Shown here piece by piece: positions 7,947 to 46,612 of a stretch of 53,382 nucleotides of DNA; the first letter of the stretch is position 1, and every line of letters starts with the position of its first letter. A program made the position numbers and the translations under genes. The notes below the pieces were generated by a model. It saw only the letters and a program-made list of their open reading frames with translations. It was not told the origin of the DNA and made no database searches. This DNA comes from a virus: positions 1-53,382 of the IMG/VR virus record IMGVR_UViG_3300046535_001175; one strand, given 5' to 3'.

Positions 7947-10243
7947 TACTGCGGCGCTCCACCGCCGACGGTCGGCTGCGCATTGGGTGGCGGTTTCGCC
8001 GGCTGCGGCTGCTTCGAGCCGAGCCGGTCAGCGGGCGCTGACGTGTCACCCGTCGGCAGCACGGGCGCATTCGCGCCGGGCCCGCTCTGCGGCACAGGCG
8101 CAGGCTGTTGCGGCTGCGGTGGCGTCGGCGGCGGCTGAAACTTCAGCAGCGCGGCGAGTTGAGGATCGACCCGGTAGTACTGCTCGAGGTGATCTTGAAT
8201 GTGCGTCAACACGCAGTCGATCGCCGACGCATTCTCTTCCGGGTTCTGCGCGAGCTGGTTGTACAGCTTCACGTGCTCGGGCAAGTCCTTGAAGGGATCG
8301 TTTGTCGCGGCGACCTGGACGCCGAGCTGCTCCTTGATCGCTTTCGCCTTGATCTCGACCGGGTTCGGCGGCTTCGGCGCATTCGGGTCCGGCGGCGCAT
8401 TCGGATCTGGCGGAGGCGGTGGCGGCGGGATCGCCGGCATCTGGCAGCCCTTCGCGAGCTGTTCGTTTTCCCACTTGATGCGGATCCACTCGGCGCTGTC
8501 CGTCTGTCCGACCTGCTTGAACTGGCCGGTCGTGATCATCAGAATCGCCGCAGCGCGCTGCTCGGGCGGCAGACCGTTCACGAGTTGAAAGAGCTGCATG
8601 CGGCCGGCTTGGCTGCGCATCATCGGTGTGACCGTCTGCAAGTCGATGCGCTTGATGCCCTTGAGCTGCTCGGCGCGGAACGTCTGCACGTACGGGCGCT
8701 CGTCGGTGCCGGTGATCTGCACGAGCAGGTCGAGCTCGGCATTGAGCATGATGAGGTCGGCCACGATGTTCGCGCTGTGCCGGCGGCCTTCGTCGAGCGT
8801 CATCTGCGTGTCGCTGTTGAACTCGACCGCGAGATTGGTGAAGAGCGCAGCCATCTCGCCGCTCGAGATGTTCGGCGGCGGCGTGCCGCGCGTGGTCGCG
8901 TTCATGCCGGTGATCGACTGCTTCATCTTGCCGCAGTGCTCGACCATCCATGGCGCGGCCTGTGGCATCGCCGGGGGCTGCATGAAGCCCGGTGCGCGCT
9001 GCGCGGTCTCGGGCACGAAGAACACGCCACCGCCGGCGGCGACCTGATCGAGATCGATATCCGTGCCTTCGTCGGCGAACATGTTCTGTCGCCCGAAGAT
9101 CGCCAGGTTCGAGAGGATGTCACTCACGACCTGGTCTTCGCCCTGCTGCACCGCGAGCACGTCCCACATGTCCGCGTAGCCGAACGCGATGTCGTGGAAC
9201 CGCGCGCTGAGCAGTTCGACGATCGGGAGGCCCGTGCGCCGCGAGACCGGCAAGCGGCCGCTGAAGAGCACCTTCGTCCCGGCGATCGCAACGTAGCGCC
9301 CGGAGCGCATCGGATTCGCGGTGTCGTTCGGATCGCCGATCGGCACGTGATAGAAGTGCCGCACCACGACGTCGTCTTCGTTGCCATACCAGTCCGAGCC
9401 GAACATGTCCTGCTCGATCATCGAGTGCTCGTTCTGCAGGCCCTGAAGCTCGCTGGCTAGATGCGGGTAGAGCGCCATCAGCTCCCACTTGCTTCGTCGC
9501 TCACGAATGCCGCGCCACAAGTGCTTGCCGAGCTGGAACGGCTCGTGGAACTCTTCCCACGGGTGCAAGATCAACGCGGTGGGCGCGCCCGCGGGCCCGA
9601 AGATGTCGATCGGCGCGGTCGAATCGGGCGCGTTCGGTACCGGAACTTGCTCGACGCCGATCTTGACGTCATCGCCCGCGTATCGATCCCAGCGCCACCA
9701 CGCGTATCCGGCGCCGTACCAGCGATCGCTCTCGACCCACGAGCGCTCCTTGGAGTCCGGCATCTCCGAGCGATAGAAGTAGTCCACCGCGGCGTCGACC
9801 ACGGGCGCCATCGCGATGCTGGCGGTGTCGGTGTTGAGCGCGACCGCTTGGAACGCAGCGCGCTGACCGGTCGCCATCGTGATCTGTTGCCGGCCGTAGC
9901 TGCGCGGCTCGTTCACGCGAAATCGAAGCTGCTCGCCGTGCACGCCTTCGACGCCGATCACCTGCGTGTCGAACTCGGTCGGTGCTTGCGGGTTGCGGCC
10001 GAACAACTGCGCGTGCGCGAGCCGCCACATGAACGAGAGCCCGCGCCGGCGCACGACTTCGAAGCACGCCTTTTCCTTGTTGATGATGTGCTGCGCGAGT
10101 TCTTCGTCAGGTGCAGCGGCCCAGTAGGTATAGAGCGGGTCGGGCTCTTCTTCGACGGGCTCGGCCGCGATGGCGGTGTCATCGACCGGCTCGAGCGGCG
10201 CTGGTGGCGAGCCGTAGAAGTCGCCTGCGGTGCTGCCGATCAC
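7946..10243 (-). CDS. portal protein
   Basis: A 765-residue protein fitting large podoviral portals, the dodecameric ring through which DNA is packaged and ejected. After an acidic N-terminal arm come typical portal features: a helical wing segment (FMWRLAHAQLFGRNP), RAAFQAVALNTDTASIAMAP, an aromatic patch (YGAGYAWWRWDRY), and a long helical stem with QITGTDERPYVQTF. The C-terminal 150 residues are Pro/Gln/Ala-rich and probably disordered. It starts with GTG at 10243 with only a weak ribosome-binding site. It follows TerL in the operon and precedes scaffold and capsid, as usual. Confidence 0.8.
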   Translation of the reverse strand: MIGSTAGDFYGSPPAPLEPVDDTAIAAEPVEEEPDPLYTYWAAAPDEELAQHIINKEKACFEVVRRRGLSFMWRLAHAQLFGRNPQAPTEFDTQVIGVEGVHGEQLRFRVNEPRSYGRQQITMATGQRAAFQAVALNTDTASIAMAPVVDAAVDYFYRSEMPDSKERSWVESDRWYGAGYAWWRWDRYAGDDVKIGVEQVPVPNAPDSTAPIDIFGPAGAPTALILHPWEEFHEPFQLGKHLWRGIRERRSKWELMALYPHLASELQGLQNEHSMIEQDMFGSDWYGNEDDVVVRHFYHVPIGDPNDTANPMRSGRYVAIAGTKVLFSGRLPVSRRTGLPIVELLSARFHDIAFGYADMWDVLAVQQGEDQVVSDILSNLAIFGRQNMFADEGTDIDLDQVAAGGGVFFVPETAQRAPGFMQPPAMPQAAPWMVEHCGKMKQSITGMNATTRGTPPPNISSGEMAALFTNLAVEFNSDTQMTLDEGRRHSANIVADLIMLNAELDLLVQITGTDERPYVQTFRAEQLKGIKRIDLQTVTPMMRSQAGRMQLFQLVNGLPPEQRAAAILMITTGQFKQVGQTDSAEWIRIKWENEQLAKGCQMPAIPPPPPPPDPNAPPDPNAPKPPNPVEIKAKAIKEQLGVQVAATNDPFKDLPEHVKLYNQLAQNPEENASAIDCVLTHIQDHLEQYYRVDPQLAALLKFQPPPTPPQPQQPAPVPQSGPGANAPVLPTGDTSAPADRLGSKQPQPAKPPPNAQPTVGGGAPQ

Positions 10244-24310: not shown

Positions 24311-24717
24311 GTTGCCAACTCCCTCTGCTGCGGTTCTCTTCGCGGTTCGCTCGCCCCGGCGCGCAACCACACCGCCGACGCTGCGAGTTCGGTGCGCAGT
24401 TGCAACGAGTCAGGCACGACTGCGATTCGCCACGCGCGCAAGAGCAGCGCCTTGTCCGCGGCGATCGCTTCCGCGCACTCCGCATCGCTCGGATCTTCCG
24501 CGTAGCATTTTTGTAACGTGATCAGATTCCACATGAGTCCGCGCAGTCGGCTCTCGTTCTCGCTGATCGCGCCCGTGTGATCGAACTTGCTTTGCAGATC
24601 GTAGTCGCGCGCTGGAAAAATCGGCACTGGCGTGCATGCGTGTTCAAGCCAGCCAGCGTTGCGGTGTATGGCGAGTGCGAGATCGCGCGGTGACTTGCAG
24701 AGTTGTGCGAGATTCAT
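24307..24717 (-). CDS. unknown protein
   Basis: A 136-residue protein, mostly helical, with MNLAQLCKSPRDLALAIHRN at the start and ENESRLRGLMWNLITLQKCY in the middle. It is followed by an acidic segment and an Ala-rich C-terminus. It overlaps the O-like gene by 4 nt. A replication-associated role is only contextual. Confidence 0.6.
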   Translation of the reverse strand: MNLAQLCKSPRDLALAIHRNAGWLEHACTPVPIFPARDYDLQSKFDHTGAISENESRLRGLMWNLITLQKCYAEDPSDAECAEAIAADKALLLRAWRIAVVPDSLQLRTELAASAVWLRAGASEPRREPQQRELAT

Positions 24718-25610
24718 TGGCCCCTCAGAAATGCTTGCCGATCGCGTTCTTGCTCGGCCGTGAGCGGCGACATCGTCGCATGCTTGGGTTGCTCGCCGCT
24801 CGCGTGCTCGGGCGGCGCTGCCCACTCGCCGAACTGATCGATCAGCCATCGCAGCACGGGGCGCTTGCTTTTGGATTCGCAGTCAGCAGCGAAAACTTTT
24901 GCGGATCGCACGAACAGCGCCCCGGGTCCGATGCGCTGCCTTTCCGCCGTGTCGCAGAGCACGCCGAGTAGGGGCTCGAACTCGCCGGCCTTCAGCTTCT
25001 GCCCGGTGTGTTGCTGCCACAGTGCCGCCAGCCTCGAGCACAAGTCGGGATCGGGCTCCGGGTCCGCATTCGGGATCTGAAAAACCGGGGGGGGGCCGAA
25101 TCCGGAAGCAACCGAGCCGTTCGCGCTCTTTGCTGCAAGCTCTGCAGTAGGCCCCCCCCGTGGATCTGGATCTGGATCTGGATCTGGATCTGCCTCTGCT
25201 ATGGGTGGACATTTGGGACGCGTCCGATTACGTCCGACATCGTCCGGACGCTTAGCTCGAGCGCGACGTTTTCGTTCTGCGTCGCGCTGCAGGTAGTCTT
25301 CTCGGCTTGCAAGCTGGCGATACTTCTCGTGATTTAGAAGAGCCCATCCGCCATCAATCGGCTCGATGCGTCTGCCGTCATGCTCTTTGGTGCGCGAGTA
25401 AGTGTCAGGCGCACAAAGGAACACAATGGCGGCATCGCAGGACTCTAACGGCACATTTGCGAGCGCTGCGAGTCCGGGTATGGAGGCCATCACCTCGCCG
25501 TGACGGTTGGCGAGCGCGAGCATGGTGATCCACACCAGGCGCACGTGGTCTGGTGCACGCCAAACAGTCGAAGTGATGATTTGTGCATGCAATTTGGTGA
25601 AGCCTTCCAT
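24714..25610 (-). CDS. O-like phage replication protein
   Basis: A 298-residue protein. The N-terminal 100 residues are a winged-helix replication-organiser type domain: FTKLHAQIITSTVWRAPDHV, then RLVWITMLALANRHGEVMAS, IPGLAALANVP and DGGWALLNHEKYR. A disordered linker follows with five Asp-Pro repeats and a triple Pro. The C-terminal helical domain (LCSRLAALWQQHTGQKLKAG onward, ending RPVLRWLIDQFGEW) may bind the helicase. It probably loads host DnaB at the phage origin, because no helicase or polymerase gene is present. Homopolymer runs of 9 G and 8 C lie in its linker. A shorter paralogue follows at 25625. Confidence 0.7.
   Translation of the reverse strand: MEGFTKLHAQIITSTVWRAPDHVRLVWITMLALANRHGEVMASIPGLAALANVPLESCDAAIVFLCAPDTYSRTKEHDGRRIEPIDGGWALLNHEKYRQLASREDYLQRDAERKRRARAKRPDDVGRNRTRPKCPPIAEADPDPDPDPDPRGGPTAELAAKSANGSVASGFGPPPVFQIPNADPEPDPDLCSRLAALWQQHTGQKLKAGEFEPLLGVLCDTAERQRIGPGALFVRSAKVFAADCESKSKRPVLRWLIDQFGEWAAPPEHASGEQPKHATMSPLTAEQERDRQAFLRGQ
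25087..25159. repeat. G9 and C8 tracts forming an inverted repeat
   Basis: Nine G (25087-25095, flanked by CC) and eight C (25152-25159, preceded by GG) lie inside the O-like gene and can pair as stem arms. Five tandem GGATCT units (25162-25191) follow. Both homopolymers are in codons of the disordered linker, so they are candidate slippage sites. Confidence 0.7.
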
Positions 25611-25624
25611 GCGATGTCCGGACG

Positions 25625-26032
25625 CTATCGGACAAGTCCGCTCTTGTCCTGGTTTGTCGCCTTGTCACGCTCATATTTCCGGCGTTGCCGAGCCGCCGCG
25701 CTCACGCGTTTGTTGCATGCTGATGCTTTACGCGAGTACTTCTCGTGATTTAGAAGGTGCCAGCCACCGTCGGCCTGCTGAATGCGGCGACCTTCGAAGT
25801 CCTTCGAGCGACTGTGCTCGTCCGGACTCAAGAAGATCCGCAACGCCGATTCACACTCGGGCTGCGAGACGTTGGCGCGCCTGGCGAGAGCGGGGATGGA
25901 TGCCTCGACGACCCCGAAACGATTGGCCATGAGAAGCATCGTGATCCACACTACCCGCGTCGAAGACGAAGCCTGCCAAAGGCAGGAATCTAGAAGAGTT
26001 CCGAATAGCTTGATGTCGTTTGCCATAAGCAT
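25625..26032 (-). CDS. O-like protein paralogue, N-terminal domain only
   Basis: A 135-residue protein closely paralleling the first 105 residues of the O-like protein: WQASSSTRVVWITMLLMANR, then ASIPALARRANVSQPEC, GRRIQQADGGWHLLNHEKYS. A basic tail replaces the linker and C-terminal domain. It probably binds DNA but lacks the helicase-loading half, so it may be a regulator, competitor or origin-marking partner. Start taken at the ATG at 26032; the ATG at 26026 (MANDIKLFG) is equally possible. Confidence 0.65.
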   Translation of the reverse strand: MLMANDIKLFGTLLDSCLWQASSSTRVVWITMLLMANRFGVVEASIPALARRANVSQPECESALRIFLSPDEHSRSKDFEGRRIQQADGGWHLLNHEKYSRKASACNKRVSAAARQRRKYERDKATNQDKSGLVR

Positions 26033-28554: not shown

Positions 28555-28826
28555 CGCGCTGCCCTCGCGCTGACTCGCCTGATCGATCGCAGCCCGCAAG
28601 CGCGGTCGACTGCACGCAACACGTTGCGCGCGCTGCCTCCGCAGTGCTCGGCCTGCAGTACCGCGAGCTCAAGCGTCGGCGTGTGGTGGCCGCGCTCAGT
28701 GCGCCCGATGATCGGGCGGTGCGTGCCTGTGCGCCGCGCGAGTTCGGCCTGCGTGAAGCCAGCGGCGAGCCGCAGGCGGCAGAGTTCAGCGCCGACGCTG
28801 ACGGCGATGCGGGCGGCGAGGGTCAT
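28551..28826 (-). CDS. XRE-family HTH regulator
   Basis: A 91-residue protein. VGAELCRLRLAAGFTQAELA followed by RRTGTHRPIIGRTERGHHTP and TLELAVLQAEHCGG is a standard lambda-repressor-like HTH. It is small and single-domain. As the second gene from the divergent control region it is the best candidate, with its neighbour, for a repressor of the rightward promoters. Confidence 0.75.
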   Translation of the reverse strand: MTLAARIAVSVGAELCRLRLAAGFTQAELARRTGTHRPIIGRTERGHHTPTLELAVLQAEHCGGSARNVLRAVDRACGLRSIRRVSARAAR

Positions 28827-29080
28827 CCTGCCGCCTCCGGTCGCGGCACAGGCTGCGTCGGCGCGTCCTCGAGCTCGGCCAGTACTACCGGCTCGCAGAG
28901 CTCCTTGACCGACACAACGCCGCCGGTCGCGTCGCTGATGCGCTTGGCGCAGTCGTAGACCTCGATCAGCTTGCCGTGCGTCGCCGCGCGCTGAACCGTC
29001 GTAAACGCAAGTCCGGTTTCGCGCACGATTCGCGAAATCTCACCGCGCCCCTTCATTGCGCACCACTCGCCGAGTCGCAT
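28823..29080 (-). CDS. Cro-like HTH protein, first leftward gene
   Basis: An 85-residue protein. MRLGEWCAMKGRGEISRIVR, then ETGLAFTTVQRAATHGKLIE and YDCAKRISDATGG form a Cro/YdaS-like HTH, as in proteins choosing between growth modes. It faces the rightward operon across the 174-nt control region. The ATG at 29080 has little upstream ribosome-binding sequence, so leaderless or weak translation is possible. Its likely target is the repeat-rich region at 29087-29231. Confidence 0.7.
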   Translation of the reverse strand: MRLGEWCAMKGRGEISRIVRETGLAFTTVQRAATHGKLIEVYDCAKRISDATGGVVSVKELCEPVVLAELEDAPTQPVPRPEAAG

Positions 29081-29254
29081 ATGCTGTTGACTCTGTTCCG
29101 TAGTGACGCCTAAAGTCAAGCCTTCGCTGGAAAATCGACAATCGCACATCATGCTACATATTTTCAAGAATCGACACGCGAAGGCTTGCGACTATATTCT
29201 GGCGGCTATAATCTCTATGTGTGGTCGCAAGAGACGCGGCCCAGGAGAGCGCAG
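29081..29254. promoter_or_regulatory. divergent control region
   Basis: Lies between the Cro-like gene (left) and the first rightward gene. It contains an 11-bp inverted repeat, CAAGCCTTCGC (29117-29127) and GCGAAGGCTTG (29178-29188). There is a second inverted pair TTGACT (29087-29092) and AGTCAA (29114-29119), and a third, CTTGCGAC (29185-29192) and GTCGCAAG (29224-29231), around the rightward promoter. AATCGACA-type elements occur at 29134 and 29170. The 11-bp arms place the same sequence against the -35 position on each side, so one protein could sense both directions. Confidence 0.7.
29186..29212 (+). promoter_or_regulatory. rightward promoter P1
   Basis: TTGCGA (29186-29191) and a perfect TATAAT (29207-29212) are separated by 15 nt, shorter than the usual 16-18. 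A CTATAAT context and the following AGGAG ribosome-binding site before the ATG at 29255 support it. The same arrangement recurs at 31184. Confidence 0.6.
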
Positions 29255-29545
29255 ATGACTTCGTCCAACCCGCCCACCATCCACGTAGACCGGCTCTCGA
29301 GCCGCCCCGCCGTTGCACGTGCAACCGGCAAGACGCTCGAGGCGCTGGCCCGGGACCGCAAGGTCGCGAAGCTGCTGGCGGTGCTCGAGCGCGCCGCGTT
29401 CGCCGCCGGCGTGCCCGTGCTGACCGCCGAGCACGTAGACGGCACCGACTGGGCCGCGGTCGCCCGCATCGCTGACTGCAACCCGCCCAGCGCGCTCACG
29501 GTCGCCCTGCTCCGCCGCCGGCTGGCGCTCGGGGGTGCACTGTGA
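29255..29545 (+). CDS. unknown protein, paralogue of the 32055 gene
   Basis: A 96-residue protein. Its helical core (LARDRKVAKLLAVLERAAFA, then AGVPVLTAEHVDGTDWAAVA and PPSALTVALLRRRL) aligns with the gene at 32055: RERKV..ILA, D....LDWA, PPSE.T...IR.R. Excellent AGGAG site 7 nt before the ATG. First gene of the rightward operon, so expressed earliest. Function unknown. Confidence 0.65.
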   Translation: MTSSNPPTIHVDRLSSRPAVARATGKTLEALARDRKVAKLLAVLERAAFAAGVPVLTAEHVDGTDWAAVARIADCNPPSALTVALLRRRLALGGAL

Positions 29546-29745
29546 TTATCACCCGCAACTACGCAATGCGCTTGGTGCGCGCTGGCAAAGCGACGATTGA
29601 GGATTGCTGCACGATCGATTCCGAGGGCGCCGTTTGGCAGATCGTAACGCGGCACGACTTGCTTCGCGTGGACCATTTTCGTGCGCTGTGCGGTAACGCT
29701 GGCCTGCCACGCCCAGAGCCGAGGCAGATCGGGGGTGCGCTGTGA
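29542..29745 (+). CDS. unknown small protein
   Basis: A 67-residue protein with GTG start in a GTGA junction. The core reads RNYAMRLVRAGKATIEDCCT then a strand (AVWQIVTRHDLLRVDHF). It resembles tiny phage proteins with a compact beta-hairpin; function unknown. Confidence 0.55.
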   Translation: MIITRNYAMRLVRAGKATIEDCCTIDSEGAVWQIVTRHDLLRVDHFRALCGNAGLPRPEPRQIGGAL

Positions 29746-29996
29746 ACCGCGCCGCCGCCGCCTACGGTTGGGAAGATGCACACACGTTCATGCGGGAAAA
29801 CGACCGCGATACCTGGACGGATACGCTTACAGGGTCGCCGTCAGAGGCTTTGATCAACGCTCTCACCGTCAACAAGACGGCCGATCTGTTTCAGGTCGAT
29901 CCGGAAGCGCCCGAGTTCTGCGACGCGCTCGCCGACTACGATGCCGAATGGCGGCGCGCGATCAAAACGACCCTCGCAAAGGACGTGACGCCATGA
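29742..29996 (+). CDS. unknown small acidic protein
   Basis: An 84-residue protein with GTG start overlapping the previous stop. Helical and acidic (DTWTDTLTGSPSEALINALT, then EFCDALADYDAEWRRAI). Net negative charge and small size are compatible with a DNA-mimic or inhibitor, but nothing specific supports that. Confidence 0.55.
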   Translation: MNRAAAAYGWEDAHTFMRENDRDTWTDTLTGSPSEALINALTVNKTADLFQVDPEAPEFCDALADYDAEWRRAIKTTLAKDVTP

Positions 29997-30163
29997 CCGC
30001 CGACCGCCTCCAAGCCGCCACGCTGGTCGAGCTGCTCGCCGAGCGCCGCGAGAACGTGCTCGAGCGCAGCCACGAGTGCGACCGCACCGCGAAGGCGATG
30101 ATCGCGCATCACATCGCCACGATCGACGCCGAGCTCGCACGCCGCAGACAGGTGACATCATGA
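29993..30163 (+). CDS. unknown 56-residue helical protein
   Basis: ATGA start. A helical hairpin (LVELLAERRENVLERSHECD, then RTAKAMIAHHIATIDAELAR) ends in RQVTS. Its final 17 bases are nearly identical to the end of the next gene. Function unknown. Confidence 0.55.
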   Translation: MTADRLQAATLVELLAERRENVLERSHECDRTAKAMIAHHIATIDAELARRRQVTS

Positions 30164-30303
30164 AACAGCTCAAGAAACTACACCGCGCCTCACGCGCGCT
30201 TGGCGACAAGCGTAGCCTGAAAACGTTCGTTCGCTCGCTGCTGCCGGGCATGTTCATCATCTGGCCAGCCAAGGCGATTCGCATCCGACAGGTGACGTCA
30301 TGA
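30160..30303 (+). CDS. unknown 47-residue basic protein
   Basis: ATGA start. Strongly basic (MKQLKKLHRASRALGDKRSL) with a hydrophobic middle (LLPGMFIIWPA), so possibly membrane- or nucleic-acid-associated. It ends IRIRQVTS like the preceding gene. Function unknown. Confidence 0.5.
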   Translation: MKQLKKLHRASRALGDKRSLKTFVRSLLPGMFIIWPAKAIRIRQVTS

Positions 30304-30488
30304 CACCGCGCGAACGTCGCGAGCTAATCGCCGCGCATGTTCTATCCGGACTGCTCGCGTCCGACGCCGGAGAACGAACCATGAGCCGGCAAGACTATTA
30401 CGCCTTCGAACCGGATAAAGCCGCCTTGATAGCCGTCGAGCTGGCCGACGCATTGATCAAACGCCTCGACGCCACGGAGTACCCATGA
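30300..30488 (+). CDS. unknown 62-residue protein
   Basis: ATGA start. TPRERRELIAAHVLSGLLAS then YAFEPDKAALIAVELADALI: two helices in the pattern (VxxAVxxADALI) seen in many uncharacterised phage gene products. Function unknown. Confidence 0.55.
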   Translation: MTPRERRELIAAHVLSGLLASDAGERTMSRQDYYAFEPDKAALIAVELADALIKRLDATEYP

Positions 30489-30697
30489 ACTCGCACTTCC
30501 CAGCACCCCAAGACGCCCGTACCCTCGCCCAGTTTCGCGCGCTCGGCGCGCCCACCCCCGCTCCGAAGCCCCGCCGGCGCGAAGACCGCTGCGAGCACTG
30601 CAAACGCGTCGTTACCGCCTTCGAGTCCGGCTACTGTGACCTGAAAACCGGGCGCGTGTGGTGCAAGCGCTCGAGCTGCCGCCCGGTGTCTTCGTGA
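30485..30697 (+). CDS. zinc-binding small protein
   Basis: A 70-residue protein. The C-terminal half carries DRCEHCKRVV then YCDLKTGRVWCKRSSC, five Cys suitable for one zinc site. The N-terminus is Pro-rich. GTGA junction with the lipoprotein gene. Function unknown. Confidence 0.55.
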   Translation: MNSHFPAPQDARTLAQFRALGAPTPAPKPRRREDRCEHCKRVVTAFESGYCDLKTGRVWCKRSSCRPVSS

Positions 30698-30876
30698 ACC
30701 GCGCGCTTACCTGGTTGGTCGCGCTCGCGCTCGCCGGCTGCGCTGCGCCGGTGCCCGAGTCGCACAAGCACCACGACGAGCACTCGTTGCTCGGCGACCC
30801 CTGCGAGCTCGACAGCGATTGCCGTGACGACGCGCTGTACTGCCTCTATCAGATTTGCACGCAGGTGAAGCAGTGA
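30694..30876 (+). CDS. small lipoprotein with Cys-rich secreted domain
   Basis: A 60-residue protein. The signal peptide ALTWLVALALAGC has an LAGC lipobox, so the mature form would begin at Cys and be lipid-anchored outside the inner membrane. The remainder, after a His-rich spacer (SHKHHDEHS), is CELDSDCRDDALYCLYQICT, a four-Cys pattern common in secreted myxobacterial proteins and probably disulphide-bonded. Being in the rightward early operon, it is more likely a superinfection-exclusion or receptor-masking lipoprotein than an outer spanin. GTG start. Confidence 0.6.
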   Translation: MNRALTWLVALALAGCAAPVPESHKHHDEHSLLGDPCELDSDCRDDALYCLYQICTQVKQ

Positions 30877-31157
30877 TCTACGGCGCAGGCGCACTCGACT
30901 TCGAAGAGCAGTTCGCGGCGCAGCGGGTCCAGCGCACGCTCTCTGCGTCGGAGTTCCGCGACGGCGTGTTCTTCGCGCGACTGATCATGATATTCGCGCA
31001 GGGTGCCCGCATCGCCGCCGAAGCTGACAACCCGGTCGAGCAAGGCCGCTGGCTTGGCGGGGCCTACGCGCTCGCACTCGAGGCGCTCGAGAACGGCGCC
31101 AACCCGCGCGACCTGAAGGCGCTGCTGGCTAAGGCTGTGCCAAAAGAATCGACGTAG
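30873..31157 (+). CDS. unknown helical protein
   Basis: A 94-residue protein with GTG start overlapping the lipoprotein stop. Helical core FRDGVFFARLIMIFAQGARI then GRWLGGAYALALEALENGAN, with ALLAKAVPKEST at the end. Last gene before the second promoter region. Function unknown. Confidence 0.55.
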   Translation: MIYGAGALDFEEQFAAQRVQRTLSASEFRDGVFFARLIMIFAQGARIAAEADNPVEQGRWLGGAYALALEALENGANPRDLKALLAKAVPKEST

Positions 31158-31254
31158 CCCGGTCGATTCCTGGCGAAGCAACCTTGCAATACGAGTAGCC
31201 CGGTACTATCTTAGATGAGTGGTCGCAAGGCGCGACACAGAGGAGAGCGGGAAG
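31154..31254 (+). promoter_or_regulatory. second rightward control region and promoter P2
   Basis: Copy of the leader at 29186. TTGCAA (31184-31189) lies exactly 35 nt before GTGGTCGCAAG (31219-31229), as TTGCGA does in P1. AGGAGAGCG and the ATG at 31255 follow. Here the -10 is weaker (TATCTT, 31207-31212, 17-nt spacer). The 10-bp sequence GTAGCCCGGT occurs twice (31154-31163, 31195-31204), one copy inside the promoter spacer, a likely operator pair 41 bp apart. Confidence 0.6.
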
Positions 31255-31515
31255 ATGGAAATCAAGTCAGCGAAGCAGAACTCGACGCATGACGTGATCA
31301 CGAGTCAAGCTGATGAGCTTGGCGACCTCATCACCTACGCGGTGCCATGCTACGTGCCGCGAGCTGGCTACTCGATCAACGACGTCGTCGCAGAACTCGG
31401 CGGAATTACGTATCTGCCTTCGCAGACAGCCGAGCGCCGCGCTGCCATTGACGAGCGCCGAGTCTTTGCGTGTGTGTGCGAAGAAGGCCAGGGAAAATTG
31501 GTCGCGCGATCATGA
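31255..31515 (+). CDS. unknown small protein
   Basis: An 86-residue protein, MEIKSAKQNSTHDVITSQAD, with a central beta-rich segment (YVPRAGYSINDVVAELGGIT) and a C-terminal Cys pair (CVCEE). AGGAGAG lies upstream of the ATG. First gene after P2. Function unknown. Confidence 0.55.
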   Translation: MEIKSAKQNSTHDVITSQADELGDLITYAVPCYVPRAGYSINDVVAELGGITYLPSQTAERRAAIDERRVFACVCEEGQGKLVARS

Positions 31516-31885: not shown

Positions 31886-32058
31886 GCGCCGAGCGACGTG
31901 CAGAGATTCGCGCCAAGACGATCGTTGTCCGGGACCGGCTCGCGCGGATCTCGGGCGCCGAGGGTCCGATCAAGCTGCTTGCGGAGGCGTTCGGCTGCAT
32001 CCATGCCCTGGCGGAAGCGGTTGAGCTCCTGCTCGACGAAACGAAGGAACGGTCATGA
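31882..32058 (+). CDS. unknown 58-residue helical protein
   Basis: ATGA start. Two helices: RRAEIRAKTIVVRDRLARIS, then LLAEAFGCIHALAEAVELLL. Likely a small oligomeric helical bundle. Function unknown. Confidence 0.5.
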   Translation: MSAERRAEIRAKTIVVRDRLARISGAEGPIKLLAEAFGCIHALAEAVELLLDETKERS

Positions 32059-32414
32059 CGCGCGAATCCCGCATCGCCATCGCGCGCGAGCGCAAGGTGG
32101 TCGCCATCCTCGCCGAACTCATGCACCAAGCGCGCCGCTCCGGAGTCGAACTCACGGTCGACGTGCTCGAAGGACTCGACTGGGCCCGCGCCGCGCTGCT
32201 AGCCGGTGTGCGCCCGCCGAGCGAGACCACGATCTCGGTCATTCGGGAACGTGTGCGCACCGGGCAGACGGGACGGCGGGCAGCAGTGAACGCGCCGACA
32301 TGCCGATGCGGTCGAGCGCTAGTGCCTGGCACGACGGAATGCGCGGAACACTCGGTCTCGGACGCGGAGCTGATGGAGACGCTACGCAACGTCAGACAGG
32401 AGGGGCCGGTATGA
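32055..32414 (+). CDS. unknown protein, paralogue of the 29255 gene, with zinc knuckle
   Basis: A 119-residue protein. Residues 5-70 align with the first rightward gene (IARERKVVAILAELMHQARR, then LDWARAALLAGVRPPSETTI). Residues 75-95 add CRCGRALVPGTTECAEH, a probable zinc knuckle that the shorter copy lacks. Its last helix is acidic. ATGA start. Function unknown. Confidence 0.6.
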   Translation: MTRESRIAIARERKVVAILAELMHQARRSGVELTVDVLEGLDWARAALLAGVRPPSETTISVIRERVRTGQTGRRAAVNAPTCRCGRALVPGTTECAEHSVSDAELMETLRNVRQEGPV

Positions 32415-32623
32415 CGCCAGAAAAATGCATCGCGCTAATACGCGCGCAGGTGCACAGCGCGAAATCAATTCTTGATGCGTGTCGTGCATTAGGAGAGATT
32501 GAAAGGTTGCTCGACGAATACGATGAGTCTGATTCTAGCGCGCAAGGCAATGTAGGGACCGAAACACGGACGGTGATACTTCTGGGCCCACCAAAAGCGC
32601 CAGATGCTAAGGATCAACTGTGA
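32411..32623 (+). CDS. unknown 70-residue protein
   Basis: ATGA start with AGGAGGGG upstream. The N-terminal helical region (CIALIRAQVHSAKSILDACR, then ALGEIERLLDEYDES) is followed by a flexible tail ending PPKAPDAKDQL. It directly precedes the nuclease gene with a 4-nt overlap. Function unknown. Confidence 0.5.
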   Translation: MTPEKCIALIRAQVHSAKSILDACRALGEIERLLDEYDESDSSAQGNVGTETRTVILLGPPKAPDAKDQL

Positions 32624-33729
32624 CCATCTACCGAGCCAGCGAGATGCCGCTCGCCTTCAAGTGCGGCGGATCCGTGCGCCTCCCCGTCGTACGCGCGCGC
32701 GAAACGCACGACGCGGCCGACGTCGGCACGGCCGTGCACGCCGCGCTGCGCTCGCTGGTCGAAACCGGATCGGTCAACTGGGACGCCCTGCCCGGCATCG
32801 CCGCGAGCTACGGCGCCAACTACGACGAAGTCCGCATGCTGGTCGCGATCGGCGCGAAACTGTGGCCGCAGATCGAGGCGAGTTTCCCGGATGCGCTGAC
32901 AGAAGTTCCGCTTTGGGTTGCCCTTGAGAAGGATCTCACCGGTCACGCCGACATTCTTTCGATCGTCGAAGATGTGGGCCGTATCGGCGATTGGAAGTCC
33001 GGTCGAAAAGACGCAAACTATCAGCACCAAATGCGCGCGTATGGAGCATTGCTCCTGGAATCATACGCAAGCCTCCGAGAGTGCACTGTTACGCTCATCT
33101 GGCTGCGAGATCAGGAGATCGAGAATTACACGGTCACCCGTGCCGATGCCGAGTCGTGGTGGTTGGAATACGACACACGCGTAGTCAACTGGGATGGCAT
33201 CTTCCGCGTCGGCGCACACTGCCAGCACTGCCCGCGTTCTCACGAGTGCGAGGCCGCAAACGCGATGGTGCGCCGCGACGTGGCCGCGTTCACCGATTCG
33301 CCGATCGTGACGCGCGTCGAGTCCGAGCTCGCGGTGATGGCACCGGAGCAGATCATCGATCTCTACGAAAAGGCTGCGCTGGTCGAATCGTACGCCGAGC
33401 GCGTGCGGCGCGCGATCAAGCATTACGTGCAGGCTGGTCACCAGGTCGAAGCCGCCGACGGCAGCAAGCTCGAGCTGAAGACCGAGAACCGCCGCTCACT
33501 CGAGCCGCTCAAGGCGTGGCCGGTGCTCGAGGACACCGCGGCTTTCACATCGCAGGACTTCGCCGCGTGCATCGATATGCGGATTTCGCGAGTCGAGAAG
33601 GTGCTCGCATCCAAATCACCAAGAGGGCAAGGCGCGGCGGCGGTCCGGAAGCTGTCGGCCGCGCTCGAGGCCGCTGGTGCGATCGAAACTACCGAAGTGC
33701 AAACGCTCGCCGTCAAGCGGGCTCGATAG
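32620..33729 (+). CDS. Cas4/AddB-like PD-(D/E)XK nuclease
   Basis: A 369-residue protein. PD-(D/E)XK motifs: GTAVHAAL (H40), LTGHADILS (D111), IGDWKSGRK (D124, K126), then YQHQMRAYG. The N-terminal RASEMPLAFKCGGS gives a Cys at 15 and the C-terminal CQHCPRSHEC gives Cys at 201, 204 and 210. One Cys before and three after the catalytic core is the iron-sulphur arrangement of Cas4 and AddB. It probably degrades DNA ends 5'-3' or 3'-5' to make single strands for recombination. The C-terminal 120 residues (from about 240) are an extra helical region. GTG start. Confidence 0.8.
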   Translation: MTIYRASEMPLAFKCGGSVRLPVVRARETHDAADVGTAVHAALRSLVETGSVNWDALPGIAASYGANYDEVRMLVAIGAKLWPQIEASFPDALTEVPLWVALEKDLTGHADILSIVEDVGRIGDWKSGRKDANYQHQMRAYGALLLESYASLRECTVTLIWLRDQEIENYTVTRADAESWWLEYDTRVVNWDGIFRVGAHCQHCPRSHECEAANAMVRRDVAAFTDSPIVTRVESELAVMAPEQIIDLYEKAALVESYAERVRRAIKHYVQAGHQVEAADGSKLELKTENRRSLEPLKAWPVLEDTAAFTSQDFAACIDMRISRVEKVLASKSPRGQGAAAVRKLSAALEAAGAIETTEVQTLAVKRAR

Positions 33730-33743
33730 AACGGGAGAGAATC

Positions 33744-34667
33744 ATGGCAAACGACGCTCAGGTATTGGATCCGATCGACGCGCTGACGCTCGGCGCGGAA
33801 GAGGGCGACTTGGTGTCGCGGATGGACACAACGGCCATCGCGGCTATCACCAGAAGCGAGGTCGAGTCACAGATCACCGCGGCGCACAAGTACCCGCGGT
33901 CGATCGCACGTTTCCTGAAGGATGCCCGGACACTCGCAACCATCACGCAGGACGTCGCCGAGAGCTGCATCTACTCGATTCCGCGCGATGGCAAGCTGAT
34001 CGCAGGACCGTCAGTACGTCTCGCCGAGCTCTGCGCGAGTGCATACGGTAATCTGCATGTTGCAGCTCGCGTGCTCGATCCGGAAGCCCGTGACATCGGA
34101 GCGCAGGGTGTGGCATGGGATCTTGAGCGCAATCTGCGTGTGACCGTCGAGACTCGACGCAGAATCGTCGGCCGCAATGGCAAGCGCTACAACGACGATC
34201 TGATAATTCTCACCGGCAACGCAGCCGCCAGCATCGCGCTGCGCAACGCAATCTTCCGCGTGATCCCTCGGAGCTATGTGCAGCTCATCTACGACGCCGC
34301 GCGCAAGGTATCTGTCGGCGACGCGAAGACGCTCGACGCGCGCCGCACGGAGATCGCCGATCGCTTGCAGAAGATCGGTGTGCCGTTCGAGCGCGTGCTC
34401 GCCAAGCTCGGCAAGACCGGCATCGAAGACATCGGGCTCGAGGATCTCGAGGTATTGATCGGACTCGGCTCGGCGATCAAGAACGGCGAGGCGCAGATCG
34501 ACGACTTGTTCCCGCCCGCGGCACCAGCGCCCGCAGCACCAGCCGACGACGGCAAGCGCATCTCGCTCAAGGGCAACAAGAACGATGCGCCTGCGGCTGC
34601 GAAGGACGAGCAGGGCTCGCTCGAGTCGCAGTTGCAAGCGTCGGTCGATCGCGGGAAGGCCAAGTGA
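33744..34667 (+). CDS. conserved phage protein, recombination partner candidate
   Basis: A 307-residue protein of a type recurrent in phages. Segments seen: RSEVESQITAAHKYPRSIAR, then TQDVAESCIYSIPRDGKLIA, GPSVRLAELCASAYGN, DLERNLRVTVETRRRI and LTGNAAASIALRNAIFRVIP. The C-terminus is a helical region (GIEDIGLEDLEVLIGLG) and an Ala/Pro linker. Its place straight after a Cas4-like exonuclease is where a single-strand annealing protein would sit, and the GPSVRLAE plus basic helices could form such a fold. That is inference; I cannot name the family. GGGAGAG site before the ATG. Confidence 0.6.
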   Translation: MANDAQVLDPIDALTLGAEEGDLVSRMDTTAIAAITRSEVESQITAAHKYPRSIARFLKDARTLATITQDVAESCIYSIPRDGKLIAGPSVRLAELCASAYGNLHVAARVLDPEARDIGAQGVAWDLERNLRVTVETRRRIVGRNGKRYNDDLIILTGNAAASIALRNAIFRVIPRSYVQLIYDAARKVSVGDAKTLDARRTEIADRLQKIGVPFERVLAKLGKTGIEDIGLEDLEVLIGLGSAIKNGEAQIDDLFPPAAPAPAAPADDGKRISLKGNKNDAPAAAKDEQGSLESQLQASVDRGKAK

Positions 34668-34939
34668 CCATGGCGCACGACAACAAGCCACCCGCCCGGC
34701 AACCGGACCCAGAGTCGCTCGCACCGCCGAAGAAGCCACGACGCACGCGTGAAGAGCGCATCGCCGAGCTGCAGGCGTTGCAAGCGCGCGACATGCTGCG
34801 CGAGGAGCTCAAGATCGCGATGGAGCAACTCGCAAGCACGATTCGCGAAGCCAAGGCGGGAACAGTTCCGTGGCTGAGCGCGGTGCATCAGTGTGAGAGC
34901 GTGATGGAAGCGCTTCGGAAGATCGAGGCGTTACCGTGA
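34664..34939 (+). CDS. unknown charged helical protein
   Basis: A 91-residue protein with a basic Pro-rich start (PARQPDPESLAPPKKPRRTR) and a coiled-coil-like helix (EERIAELQALQARDMLREEL). It starts with GTG in a GTGA junction, or ATG at 34670. A 4-nt overlap follows. Function unknown; possibly an accessory to the recombination pair. Confidence 0.55.
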   Translation: MTMAHDNKPPARQPDPESLAPPKKPRRTREERIAELQALQARDMLREELKIAMEQLASTIREAKAGTVPWLSAVHQCESVMEALRKIEALP

Positions 34940-35730
34940 TCGATCTGCCCAAAGACATCACCCTGATTTCCGGAGTCGGCGAGCGCGAAGAGCATACCGC
35001 CTGTCTCATGTCCGCAGCGGCCTGGTTCGCCGGCCAAGACGAAAGCGTTGGCGACGCGCCACCGTGCGTCAGCCGAGTCGTGCGGCCGATCGCGATTCAG
35101 CTGAACGATGGCCCATGGTGGACCGACAATGCCGAGCGCACGGATCAGCTCTTGCCGCTCGCGCTGCGGCTTGTCGGTACCGCGAGCACGCCGGAGATCG
35201 AGGCGCAGCGACTGTGCTTGCTACTGCATCGGTCGCTGTGCGTCTGGCTGCCCGATGGGCTTGAGCATGTTGCCTCGGCAATCGAAGCGAAGAACAAAGC
35301 GCGCGCAACTGAACTGCGAACGCACGCCGTAACGCTTCGGGCGTTTCCGATCGAGCGATTGCAACCGGCGCTCGCTGACCTCGCTGACCTCACTGACCTC
35401 GCTGACCTCGCTGACCTCACTGACCTCGCTGACCTCGCTGACCTCGCTGCCCTCGCTGACCTCGCTGACCTCGCTGCCCTCGCTGCCCGCGCTTACCTCG
35501 CTGCCCGCGCTGTCCGCGCTGTCCGCGCTGACCTCGCTGACCTCGCTGCCCTCACTGACTTCGCTGCCCGCGCTGCCCGCGCTTACCTCGCTGCCCTCGC
35601 TGACTTCGCTGCCCTCGCTGACTTCGCTGACTTCGCTGATTCAACAGCACTGGCCAAGAGACAACGTGAAGCGCGCGAGCTGTTGCGGCAGCTGATCGAG
35701 GACATGATCGCGATCAAGGATCCAGCATGA
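34936..35730 (+). CDS. protein with 30 tripeptide repeats
   Basis: A 264-residue protein. Residues 1-143 are an ordinary globular domain (PWWTDNAERTDQLLPLALRL, then PEIEAQRLCLLLHRSLCVWL). Residues 147-236 are 30 consecutive triplets of the form A-x-L/F/R (ADL, TDL, AAL, ADF and variants), encoded by a near-perfect 9-bp tandem array. The last 28 residues are a charged helix (KRQREARELLRQLIEDMIAI). A continuous Ala-Asp-Leu helix with one hydrophobic face per turn is plausible. Function unknown. ATGA overlap with the next gene. Confidence 0.65.
   Translation: MIDLPKDITLISGVGEREEHTACLMSAAAWFAGQDESVGDAPPCVSRVVRPIAIQLNDGPWWTDNAERTDQLLPLALRLVGTASTPEIEAQRLCLLLHRSLCVWLPDGLEHVASAIEAKNKARATELRTHAVTLRAFPIERLQPALADLADLTDLADLADLTDLADLADLAALADLADLAALAARAYLAARAVRAVRADLADLAALTDFAARAARAYLAALADFAALADFADFADSTALAKRQREARELLRQLIEDMIAIKDPA
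35374..35643 (+). repeat. 30-unit 9-bp tandem repeat
   Basis: Units resemble GCTGACCTC, with variants changing one to three bases (GCTGCCCTC, GCTGACTTC, GCTGCCCGC). Thirty units occupy 270 bp and stay in frame with the gene. The 5' part is most uniform and the 3' part more diverged. Length change by slippage would shift the protein by whole triplets without a frameshift. Confidence 0.85.
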
Positions 35731-38468: not shown

Positions 38469-39341
38469 ATGAAACCATTCTGGAACGCAGCTCGAGCTCG
38501 ACAGCAGCAGACACCGCACAAGCGAAGCGTGTTCGCGCCGGTCAAACCCAAGTCTGTGTTTTGGCTTGTCACCGATCGCGATCCCAGACCAGCGCATGCA
38601 GCGATGCGCCACGACGGCGATTTCCCGAGTTGCGTCAGGTGCGGATACCAAGCCTGTTTTTGCGCGGTGACCGTGAGAGAACAGAGAAGGCCGTTCGACC
38701 CGATGACGGGGTGGAAGGAGGCCGTCGTCCCGGGCTGCTACAAGCACGTCTCTGGGGCATTCGTTGGGAAGGATTTGGGGCACGGGTTCTGTTGGGCCGC
38801 GGGCCCCAGAGGCGACATCGTCGATCACCGGGAGTGGAAGCCCACGCTCGAGGAAGCGATGGCCGCGGCGCTCGGATACTTTACGTGGCACAGACCAGAC
38901 GGCACACATTCTCTGGTATCGACAGCCAAAAACCAGAGGGCTTGCGAATATCACGATCGTACCCAATGGCCAGATGCACGCTCCGCCGCGCTCGCGGCGC
39001 TCGAGTTCGACGCGCACGACCGCGGGCTCTACTTCGACTCTGACAAGAGAGTTGGCGAGACGCTCGAACGCGTGCCAGAAGCCGTTAGGTCGCGCGATGA
39101 TGATGCGGATCTTCCGCCCGGATGGCAGAGAGATCGTGTGTATGAGAGCGCCAATCATCCGCGCGTGTTCGGAAATCGAACTCTGCATCTGACGGTATGG
39201 CTAATGAGAGATGACCGATGGAGCACAGTGGTCGCGCCCGGAGAAAAGGAATACTTTTACTCCCGCAAGGCCGCGATGGCCGCCGCTGAAGCCTCAGTGC
39301 TACACCTACCGCGTGCCGCCGCAGTGGCCAAAGATCAGTGA
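38469..39341 (+). CDS. unknown protein of phage-restricted type
   Basis: A 290-residue protein. The ATG at 38469 has AGGAG 9 nt upstream and is preferred over an in-frame GTG at 38415. It contains a Cys motif (CVRCGYQACFC) and two short repeats of an Ala-rich helix after an aromatic strand (WKPTLEEAMAAALGYFTWHR and DARSAALAALEFDAHDRGLY). A third similar element (EYFYSRKAAMAAAEA) ends the protein, suggesting an internal repeat of a short alpha-beta unit. Function unknown. Confidence 0.6.
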   Translation: MKPFWNAARARQQQTPHKRSVFAPVKPKSVFWLVTDRDPRPAHAAMRHDGDFPSCVRCGYQACFCAVTVREQRRPFDPMTGWKEAVVPGCYKHVSGAFVGKDLGHGFCWAAGPRGDIVDHREWKPTLEEAMAAALGYFTWHRPDGTHSLVSTAKNQRACEYHDRTQWPDARSAALAALEFDAHDRGLYFDSDKRVGETLERVPEAVRSRDDDADLPPGWQRDRVYESANHPRVFGNRTLHLTVWLMRDDRWSTVVAPGEKEYFYSRKAAMAAAEASVLHLPRAAAVAKDQ

Positions 39342-39534
39342 CTTCCCGCCGCGTTGGGAAAACGCCGACCTCGGCGCGATCGAGGACAGCGGCCCGGGCT
39401 TCAGCGCACAGCCCAAGTGCGGGCATCACTTCACGCTGCTGAGCTTCGTCGACGCCGCGCGCGCGCTGAGCGAGCAGGACGGGCTGTGCTTGGCGTGCTG
39501 CAACGATCACGGCTTGCGCGGGCGTCGGCCATAG
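39313..39534 (+). CDS. unknown small protein, last rightward gene
   Basis: A 73-residue protein from a GTG at 39313 (VPPQWPKISDFPPRWENADL), 29 nt before the previous stop; a start at 39211 is possible but overlaps by 131 nt. The C-terminal half (PKCGHHFTLLSFVDAARALS, then CLACCNDH) could bind a metal. Convergent with the leftward gene at 39507. Confidence 0.45.
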   Translation: MPPQWPKISDFPPRWENADLGAIEDSGPGFSAQPKCGHHFTLLSFVDAARALSEQDGLCLACCNDHGLRGRRP

Positions 39535-44774: not shown

Positions 44775-45541
44775 GGCAGTCCATACGAGTTCGCCGTGTA
44801 GCCCGGGAAGTTCGCGCCTCTCAGGAAGGCGCGCATATTTGTAATCTGCTGCGCGGTCACATCGGAAGCCAAGATTGCGTGTGCGAATATACAGTTGTTG
44901 AAGCTGCTCAATGCTGCGAACCCGCACAACTCCATAGCGGAGAGAGAATGTGCCAGAGCGATATTCCCGTTGTTCACAGAGGTTCCGTTGACCGTTATCA
45001 CGGCAGTGCCGCCGACGGGCCACCCGACCTCTACGAGAGCCTTTCCGGTGCGCGATACTGTGCTATCGGTAAACTCGTCCGCTCCGCTCACTCGACGCGA
45101 TGTCCAGTCACCATTACCACTATTGTCGCTCAGCACGTTGAACCAAGTATCCGCCAGCGGAGCGTCCCGCACGGTGGCGCAATACTTCGTGCCTGCTTGA
45201 CCATCCTGCATGACGAGCCACAGATACGGTCGGTGCGTGTTCGTGATCGGCGCGTTGAATGCGGAGACTAGAATATCGTTCGATCCGTCACCTTGAAATG
45301 CCGGGCCGCCGTTGAATCCGGTCGCGAGGTATGCGGGCTGCTGATTTGCCGTTCCATTCGTGGCATTGGACGCGTCGTTGCCGTAGTTGTGCAGCGTCTG
45401 AACGTTTCCAGCGTTGAGGACCTTGAGCGGGTCGTTCGCGCGAAACTCAGAATGAAGAGAAGCGCCGAGAATCGTGGACGGACTGGTAGTTGTACCGCCG
45501 TGGCTGTTCGCAAGAGCCGGTGGGAAGCCGGGTCGCGTCAT
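44771..45541 (-). CDS. lectin-like tail protein
   Basis: A 256-residue protein with a LamG-like pattern: LGASLHSEFRANDPLKVLNA, NGTANQQPAYLATGFNGGPA, FQGDGSNDILVSAFNAP, HRPYLWLVMQDG, and AHAILASDVTAQQITNMRAF near the end. The middle is alike in layout to the N-terminal part of the adjacent esterase protein (DGSNHRM and DGSNDIL, followed by RPWFWLVLQ and RPYLWLVMQ). Probably a surface-binding tail component. ATGA start. Confidence 0.65.
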   Translation of the reverse strand: MTRPGFPPALANSHGGTTTSPSTILGASLHSEFRANDPLKVLNAGNVQTLHNYGNDASNATNGTANQQPAYLATGFNGGPAFQGDGSNDILVSAFNAPITNTHRPYLWLVMQDGQAGTKYCATVRDAPLADTWFNVLSDNSGNGDWTSRRVSGADEFTDSTVSRTGKALVEVGWPVGGTAVITVNGTSVNNGNIALAHSLSAMELCGFAALSSFNNCIFAHAILASDVTAQQITNMRAFLRGANFPGYTANSYGLP

Positions 45542-46080
45542 GTTACCGCCAGCGCCGCGCCCGTGTTCATCCAGAATCGAACGCACGCGTCGACGCTCGT
45601 GTAGAGCGCGTACGTGAGAATGCACTTGTTGTTCGCGACCAGCATATTGGTCGTGTTGATCGTGGTGAGGGCGTCGTCCATCTCCTTGGTGCGTCCAGAG
45701 ACAGTGATGCCGGTGATCTTCTTTCCGCCGGCTGCGGCTTGCTTGAATATGAACGTGCCGCAGTCGCCGTCTTTGCCGTTGGTCAGTGTCAACGCGAAAT
45801 CCGCCGTGACGATGTCCGTCATCTGCCACGAGTTGCTCTGACTGAGATCGAGCGTGATTGCCGAGGCGTAGACGACCTGCTTGGGGACTTGCCGGATCGA
45901 GCCGAGCTGGCTGCACAGCGCAGGAGCTATACCTGATCCCATGCACGTGTAAACGTTGCCCAACTGGTCGTCGAAGACCGTCGCGCCGAGGTCTTCTGGC
46001 ACGAACGGATACGCCAGCATTTCGGCCGTGGTGTCGAAGTGGAAGACGTAGAGTTGCTGACCTTCTTTTTTGTATCCCAT
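45538..46080 (-). CDS. tail protein, paralogue of the 46094 gene
   Basis: A 180-residue protein. After a short alpha/beta N-terminus (GQQLYVFHFDTTAEMLAYPF), residues 75-170 repeat the layout of the adjacent upstream gene: ADFALTLTNGKDGDCGTFIF, then KQAAAGGKKITGITVSGRTK. The middle resembles the beta-sandwich of short fibre proteins. Likely a minor tail or fibre component. ATGA overlap downstream. Confidence 0.6.
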   Translation of the reverse strand: MGYKKEGQQLYVFHFDTTAEMLAYPFVPEDLGATVFDDQLGNVYTCMGSGIAPALCSQLGSIRQVPKQVVYASAITLDLSQSNSWQMTDIVTADFALTLTNGKDGDCGTFIFKQAAAGGKKITGITVSGRTKEMDDALTTINTTNMLVANNKCILTYALYTSVDACVRFWMNTGAALAVT

Positions 46081-46093
46081 GGAGTTTCTCCGC

Positions 46094-46612
46094 TCAGGTA
46101 AACGTCTTCGCTTCGAGCACGAGGTAATCGACAGCGTTCAGCGTAACGAACGCGTAGTTCACCAGGAAAAGCGCGTTGGCTGTTGCTGGAATCGCCACGC
46201 CGCCAACCATTTTCACCGTGCGACCTGCTGCGACGATCGTGACCGCGCGCCCGGTCGCATCCTGCTGAAAGTACAGCGTGCCCCGCTTGGTGTTGTCGCC
46301 GTTGGTCAGCGTGACTGCGAGAGCAGCGGTCAGCGTGTCGGTCTCCCCGTAGTTGGCGTGCGTGGAGACGTCCACGTTAATCGCTGCGCCGCCGCCAGAT
46401 GCGAACGTGCCGAGCGTGGCCGGAGAGCCGCCGCCGAGCGTGGCGAGCATCTCAGTCGTCGTTGCGTCGTCGAGCACGGTTTGCGCCGCTGCGGTGACCG
46501 CGAAGGAGAGCTTCGAGGGAGTAGCGCCGCCGTCCTTGAGCTCGAGCTTTTTGCTGACGTCGTTCCAGTGAACGCCGGCTTCGTCTGCGTGGTCTTTGAG
46601 TTCGTTTGCCAT
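46094..46612 (-). CDS. tail protein, paralogue of the 45538 gene
   Basis: A 172-residue protein with a short adaptor-like N-terminus (ANELKDHADEAGVHWNDVSK) and a beta-rich C-terminal domain: TLTAALAVTLTNGDNTKRGT, then LYFQQDATGRAVTIVAAGRT. It matches the LTLTNG...GT..F.Q......T..V.GRT pattern of the next gene. Likely a fibre or tail-decoration component. TGATG junction with the acidic gene upstream. Confidence 0.6.
   Translation of the reverse strand: MANELKDHADEAGVHWNDVSKKLELKDGGATPSKLSFAVTAAAQTVLDDATTTEMLATLGGGSPATLGTFASGGGAAINVDVSTHANYGETDTLTAALAVTLTNGDNTKRGTLYFQQDATGRAVTIVAAGRTVKMVGGVAIPATANALFLVNYAFVTLNAVDYLVLEAKTFT

Follow-up and report, generated by a model that had tools for sequence, protein, structure and literature searches.

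A putative early promoter cassette present in two copies 2 kb apart in a phage genome

The window analyzed here is a virus record of 53,382 bases (64% GC), in which terminase, portal, and head genes were found and the region from ~26 to 41 kb is the early region. Two similar segments of this region, copy 1 and copy 2, lie ~2 kb apart (Table 1), one in the main control region and the other at the head of the DNA-recombination genes. Copy 1 points rightward out of a divergent region, the leftward side of which contains the gene for an 85-aa protein and an XRE/HTH_3 regulator gene. Searches with the 85-aa protein and its predicted structure, using phmmer and Foldseek, gave no significant match. 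Copy 2 is located within a 97-nt gap, ahead of genes that run to a DUF2800 exonuclease and a phrog_3657 protein. Judging from this gene pairing, the phrog_3657 protein is probably the DNA-annealing partner of the nuclease.

The gene that follows copy 1 and a gene of the copy 2 operon, 32055–32414, encode small paralogous proteins (42% over 64 aa), and the cassette may have been duplicated together with this gene. Adjacent paralogue pairs are also observed at 24714–25610 and 25625–26032 and at 45538–46080 and 46094–46612, with identities of 47 and 37%, respectively. The gene at 34936–35730 contains ~27 overlapping 9-nt repeat units (35314–35682) encoding a three-residue repeat of the Ala-Asp-Leu type, and two poorly annotated gaps, 30154–30667 and 39332–39516, display inverted similarity (score of 37 versus a null maximum of 32).

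Table 1. Features of the two copies and of the flanking genes (positions in the window)
Feature	Position	Strand	Remarks
XRE/HTH_3 regulator gene, 91 aa	28551..28826	-	candidate common factor; Pfam HTH_3 1.6e-9; PHROGs transcription regulators
85-aa gene, first leftward	28823..29080	-	four-helix model; possible regulator; no family match
GCGAAGGCTTG box, mirror copy	29117..29127	-	overlaps possible leftward -35 (TTGACT)
GCGAAGGCTTG box	29178..29188	+	overlaps -35 of copy 1
Copy 1 -35-like box TTGCGA	29186..29191	+	
Copy 1 -10 TATAAT	29207..29212	+	15-nt spacer from TTGCGA (short)
Copy 1 leader element GTGGTCGCAAG	29221..29231	+	predicted +1 to +11
Copy 1 Shine-Dalgarno block AGGAGAGCG	29243..29251	+	
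Copy 1 start codon ATG	29255	+	
96-aa gene, first 3' of copy 1	29255..29545	+	paralogue of 32055-32414
GTAGCCCGGT, first copy	31154..31163	+	within AATCGAC-N8-GTCGATT palindrome (31147-31168)
GCGAAGCAACCTTG box	31173..31186	+	diverged match to GCGAAGGCTTG; alone not significant
Copy 2 -35-like box TTGCAA	31184..31189	+	
GTAGCCCGGT, second copy	31195..31204	+	in -35/-10 spacer of copy 2; 41 bp from first
Copy 2 -10 region	31204..31212	+	TACTAT or TATCTT
Copy 2 leader element GTGGTCGCAAG	31219..31229	+	predicted +1 to +11
Copy 2 Shine-Dalgarno block AGGAGAGCG	31241..31249	+	
Copy 2 start codon ATG	31255	+	
86-aa gene, first 3' of copy 2	31255..31515	+	heads gene run to nuclease
DUF2800/PD-(D/E)XK exonuclease	32620..33729	+	copy 2 operon
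phrog_3657 protein	33744..34667	+	copy 2 operon

The two copies have a common architecture. As the initial annotation had stated, a TTGCxA box and GTGGTCGCAAG are spaced by exactly 35 nt, TTGC to GTGG, in both copies (29186/29221 and 31184/31219) and are followed by AGGAGAGCG and an ATG, which lies 34 or 36 nt past the GTG of GTGGTCGCAAG. Both GTGGTCGCAAG and AGGAGAGCG occur exactly twice in the window. Identity between the copies is unevenly distributed: 16/35 positions agree from -35 to -1, the -35 box being the weaker part of the match, compared with 11/11 in GTGGTCGCAAG, 3/11 in the next 11 nt, and 9/9 in AGGAGAGCG. The two leader blocks are thus identical at 20/20 positions while the promoter part has diverged, which suggests, from sequence comparison, that the leader has a role beyond that of the promoter.

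Promoters of the sigma-70 type have -35 and -10 hexamers that are 16–18 nt apart, and their transcripts start 6–9 nt past the -10 hexamer. The hexamers of copy 1 are TTGCGA-15-TATAAT and those of copy 2 are TTGCAA-17-TATCTT or TTGCAA-14-TACTAT, such that the best -10 hexamers have spacers off the optimum, 15 nt in copy 1 and 14 nt in copy 2. The TATAAT first described for copy 1 is present, and the poorer -10 described for copy 2 is here corrected to TACTAT or TATCTT, each a 4/6 match. A promoter scan ranked TCGACA-16-TATATT (29171–29198) above TTGCGA/TATAAT for copy 1 and listed no promoter for copy 2. Since 35 nt is the distance expected from a -35 box to the start of transcription, GTGGTCGCAAG probably forms the first 11 nt (+1 to +11) of two early transcripts. 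The spacing is read in this way because the operon-side start codon in the relatives described below lies 35–37 nt from the -35 TTG, the same distance as GTGG in the window. The earlier suggestion that GTGGTCGCAAG belongs to the mRNA leader is therefore consistent with the promoter geometry, with the start itself predicted.

The resemblance of the two copies was compared with that of other gene starts in the window. When upstream regions are aligned by their start codons, the copy 1/copy 2 pair has the highest score, 17, among 4,276 pairs; in 40 resampled genomes, the best pair averages 14.1, with a maximum of 16. Considered alone, the score of the pair was reached in 0 of 20,000 null runs. 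A gapped alignment of the segment between -70 and the ATG gives 30.25, compared with at most 26.5 in 5,000 null runs (p below 2e-4).

Upstream of the hexamers, the divergent region of copy 1 significantly matches its own reverse complement (p = 0.003), with GCGAAGGCTTG present in both orientations (Table 1). Boxes common to the upstream parts of both copies, AAGAATCGAC and GCGAAG-CTTG, are not significant on their own (p = 0.19). The only two exact matches to GTAGCCCGGT are both in copy 2, and this pair, a candidate operator, would suit an extra repression of copy 2.

The exact element was not recovered elsewhere. BLAST of both copies against annotated phages gave nothing except one 18-nt chance match. 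A search of IMG/VR with TTGCxA-N29-GTGGTCGCAAG, the pattern put forward in the initial annotation, yielded no true relative; its five matches were coincidental, none being followed by a Shine-Dalgarno sequence and ATG. In IMG/VR, GTGGTCGCAAG with a Shine-Dalgarno sequence was found in six stretches, and GTGGTCGCAAG with a Shine-Dalgarno sequence and ATG was found 31 times versus 26 times for a scrambled control, which is the level of chance. Because GTGGTCGCAAG matches in IMG/VR are mainly coding (Gly-Arg-Lys codons), they do not point to a widespread element. Two unrelated phages, L003 (~8942–8976, minus strand) and L077 (1384–1418), have in common a terminator-like hairpin leader, TGTGGTCGCAA..GGGGCTTT..CAGGAGA, before an ATG, with TGTGGTCGCAA in the loop. 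These are probably generic hairpins of the GCAA-loop, terminator type that were selected by the search pattern.

The relatives considered here are 30 IMG/VR loci fetched with the phrog_3657 alignment, in which genes were called with a simple codon-usage caller; queries with the DUF2800 protein and the 85-aa leftward protein found no relatives. The exact element of the window is in none of the 30 loci. Four among the closest loci, L018, L019, L021, and L009, share the nuclease/annealing-type operon and carry a promoter element at exactly two places per record, about 2.9–3.1 kb apart, and the sequence of this element is private to each phage. In all four, as in the window, one of the two copies precedes the nuclease operon. 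The other copy of L018, L019, and L021 is at the leftward promoter of the regulator region, and the two copies are in opposite orientation. The L018 element is a perfect 22-nt repeat with TTGACA, GCCGGCTTGACATCGTGATGCC being the sequence at both of its sites, and L018 also encodes a repressor-like protein (4243–4803); the layout recurs with other sequences in L019 and L021. In L009, the two copies are on the same strand, 3.07 kb apart, and the duplication covers the promoter and the first codons. Its second copy, located well ahead of the nuclease, leads a long run of genes, and a regulator gene was not identified next to the first. L020 and L023 contain no clear duplicated element. The operon copies of the four relatives are near-leaderless, whereas the window has a 34–36-nt leader with a Shine-Dalgarno sequence. 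These two-copy elements are parallels of layout and not cases of sequence conservation.

Two further observations were made among the relatives. In L009, a gene (470–1216) for a sigma-70 family protein with regions 2, 3, and 4 lies immediately ahead of the first duplicated promoter, and this phage sigma factor might read the duplicated promoters. In L031, an AT-rich relative, a 26-nt CATAA..TTTATGTA repeat precedes two genes (upstream regions of 6802 and 8045).

On balance, we consider it fairly likely that the two segments are a duplicated early promoter cassette through which one phage regulator drives two operons together. The duplicated sequence, its placement, and the analogous two-copy layouts in four relatives are direct observations; promoter activity, transcript starts, regulator binding, and co-regulation are what we infer from them. 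Each of these paralogous cassettes would comprise a -35-like TTGC(G/A)A, a -10, a start at or beside GTGGTCGCAAG, a leader of ~34–36 nt, and a strong Shine-Dalgarno sequence. Copy 1 would fire rightward from the divergent regulator region, and copy 2 would begin the gene run to the DUF2800 exonuclease and the protein presumed to be its annealing partner. Duplication of the cassette would have been followed by sequence drift, and a single phage regulator that acts at common sites near the -35 box would switch both operons together; the recombination genes would therefore not depend on read-through over 2 kb of small genes. The initial proposal of a duplicated promoter with a common leader is thus the best reading, the copies being the best pair among gene-start regions, with the promoters predicted. 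Its single common factor is backed by the two-copy elements of L018, L019, L021, and L009: since the layout recurs in several relatives despite markedly different sequences, both gene sets are probably under one regulator, whose binding at these sites is putative. The strength or timing of the two copies may differ, as was also proposed initially.

The conservation of the leader could have other origins. GUGGUCGC and the variable stretch that follows it could form a 5'-terminal hairpin that protects or regulates both mRNAs and leaves the Shine-Dalgarno sequence free. The higher conservation of the leader blocks relative to the promoter would suit such an element, and a 5' hairpin folds in both leaders with a z of about -2. 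However, shuffling the variable 11 nt that provide the 3' arm gives equally stable folds in 36 and 23% of cases, the hairpin arms are shifted by 2 nt between the copies, and no Rfam covariance model for a known structured RNA leader matches either copy. A hairpin in the leaders is possible, with support not above chance, and we regard a regulatory role for it as unlikely. Since shuffling does not support the hairpin, the leader may instead be conserved as the downstream half of an operator, as a factor-binding leader, or for a favourable translation start. For the second of these, GTGGTCGCAAG-N11-AGGAGAGCG would be a sequence-specific leader element, kept unchanged in both mRNAs as their promoters drifted, at which a phage-encoded factor acts after transcription start, at the RNA level or on elongation; this too we take to be doubtful.

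For the first, TTGCGA and GTGGTCGCAAG would represent a single operator in opposite orientations (CTTGCGAC and GTCGCAAG), bound by a pair of repressors flanking the -10. Copy 1 contains a perfect 8-bp inverted pair, a 46-bp stretch of it matches its own reverse complement with two mismatches under the search pattern, and CCTTGC/GCAAGG is kept in copy 2. Yet the dyad of copy 2 is just 6 bp, an 8-bp dyad is not rare somewhere in a 90-bp region, and the site shared by the relatives is at the -35 only, which makes this arrangement improbable.

A short upstream reading frame, starting at ATG 29217 (MCGRKRRGPGERR, with a stop overlapping ATG 29255) and at ATG 31215 (MSGRKARHRGERE...), is a very improbable source of the conservation: the first 13 codons are open and alike in both frames, but the differences show no preference for third codon positions, the second frame runs past the gene start without a stop, and the ATG, 31 nt from the TTG, is probably 5' of the transcript start. 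A chance likeness of two Shine-Dalgarno regions with a repeated 11-mer is hardly credible, for although such an 11-mer is unremarkable in 53 kb at 64% GC and 35-nt matches of 74% are found elsewhere too, the null comparisons above and the parallel duplications in four relatives speak against it.

The probable promoter cassette suggests a recurring design in an uncharacterized phage group, in which a phage-private promoter/operator element is placed at exactly two positions, including one ahead of the recombination operon. As the sequence of the element changes between phages and the layout stays, this design offers a route to matching unknown phage regulators to their sites by sequence analysis only. 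In lambda, one phage regulator acts on two early promoters a few kilobases apart through repeated sites, OL/pL and OR/pR, one of which is by the regulator genes. Like lambda, the window repeats one site at two predicted early promoters, the first of which is next to regulator genes, with a candidate XRE gene nearby. The main differences are that both copies in the window have the same direction, that the transcribed leader is shared as well, that the regulator is putative, and that the sequence is unrelated. In cluster K mycobacteriophages, the SAS, GGGATAGGAGCCC, is found before start codons in 11–19 copies per genome; SAS and ESAS are AGGAG-containing repeats that immediately precede start codons in the non-structural half, and some of them have an inverted repeat upstream (PMC3203893). 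The element in the window is not an SAS, as it has a different sequence, is present in two copies, and is attached to a promoter. The operators and stoperators of cluster A mycobacteriophages are repeated regulator sites that control early promoters, the stoperators being numerous and genome-wide (PMC9283540). In contrast, the window has two exact sites, restricted to the early region, and each relative's record has two places. The logic of one regulator and two early promoters is thus known from lambda; what is new are the sequences and the recurrence of the two-place layout.
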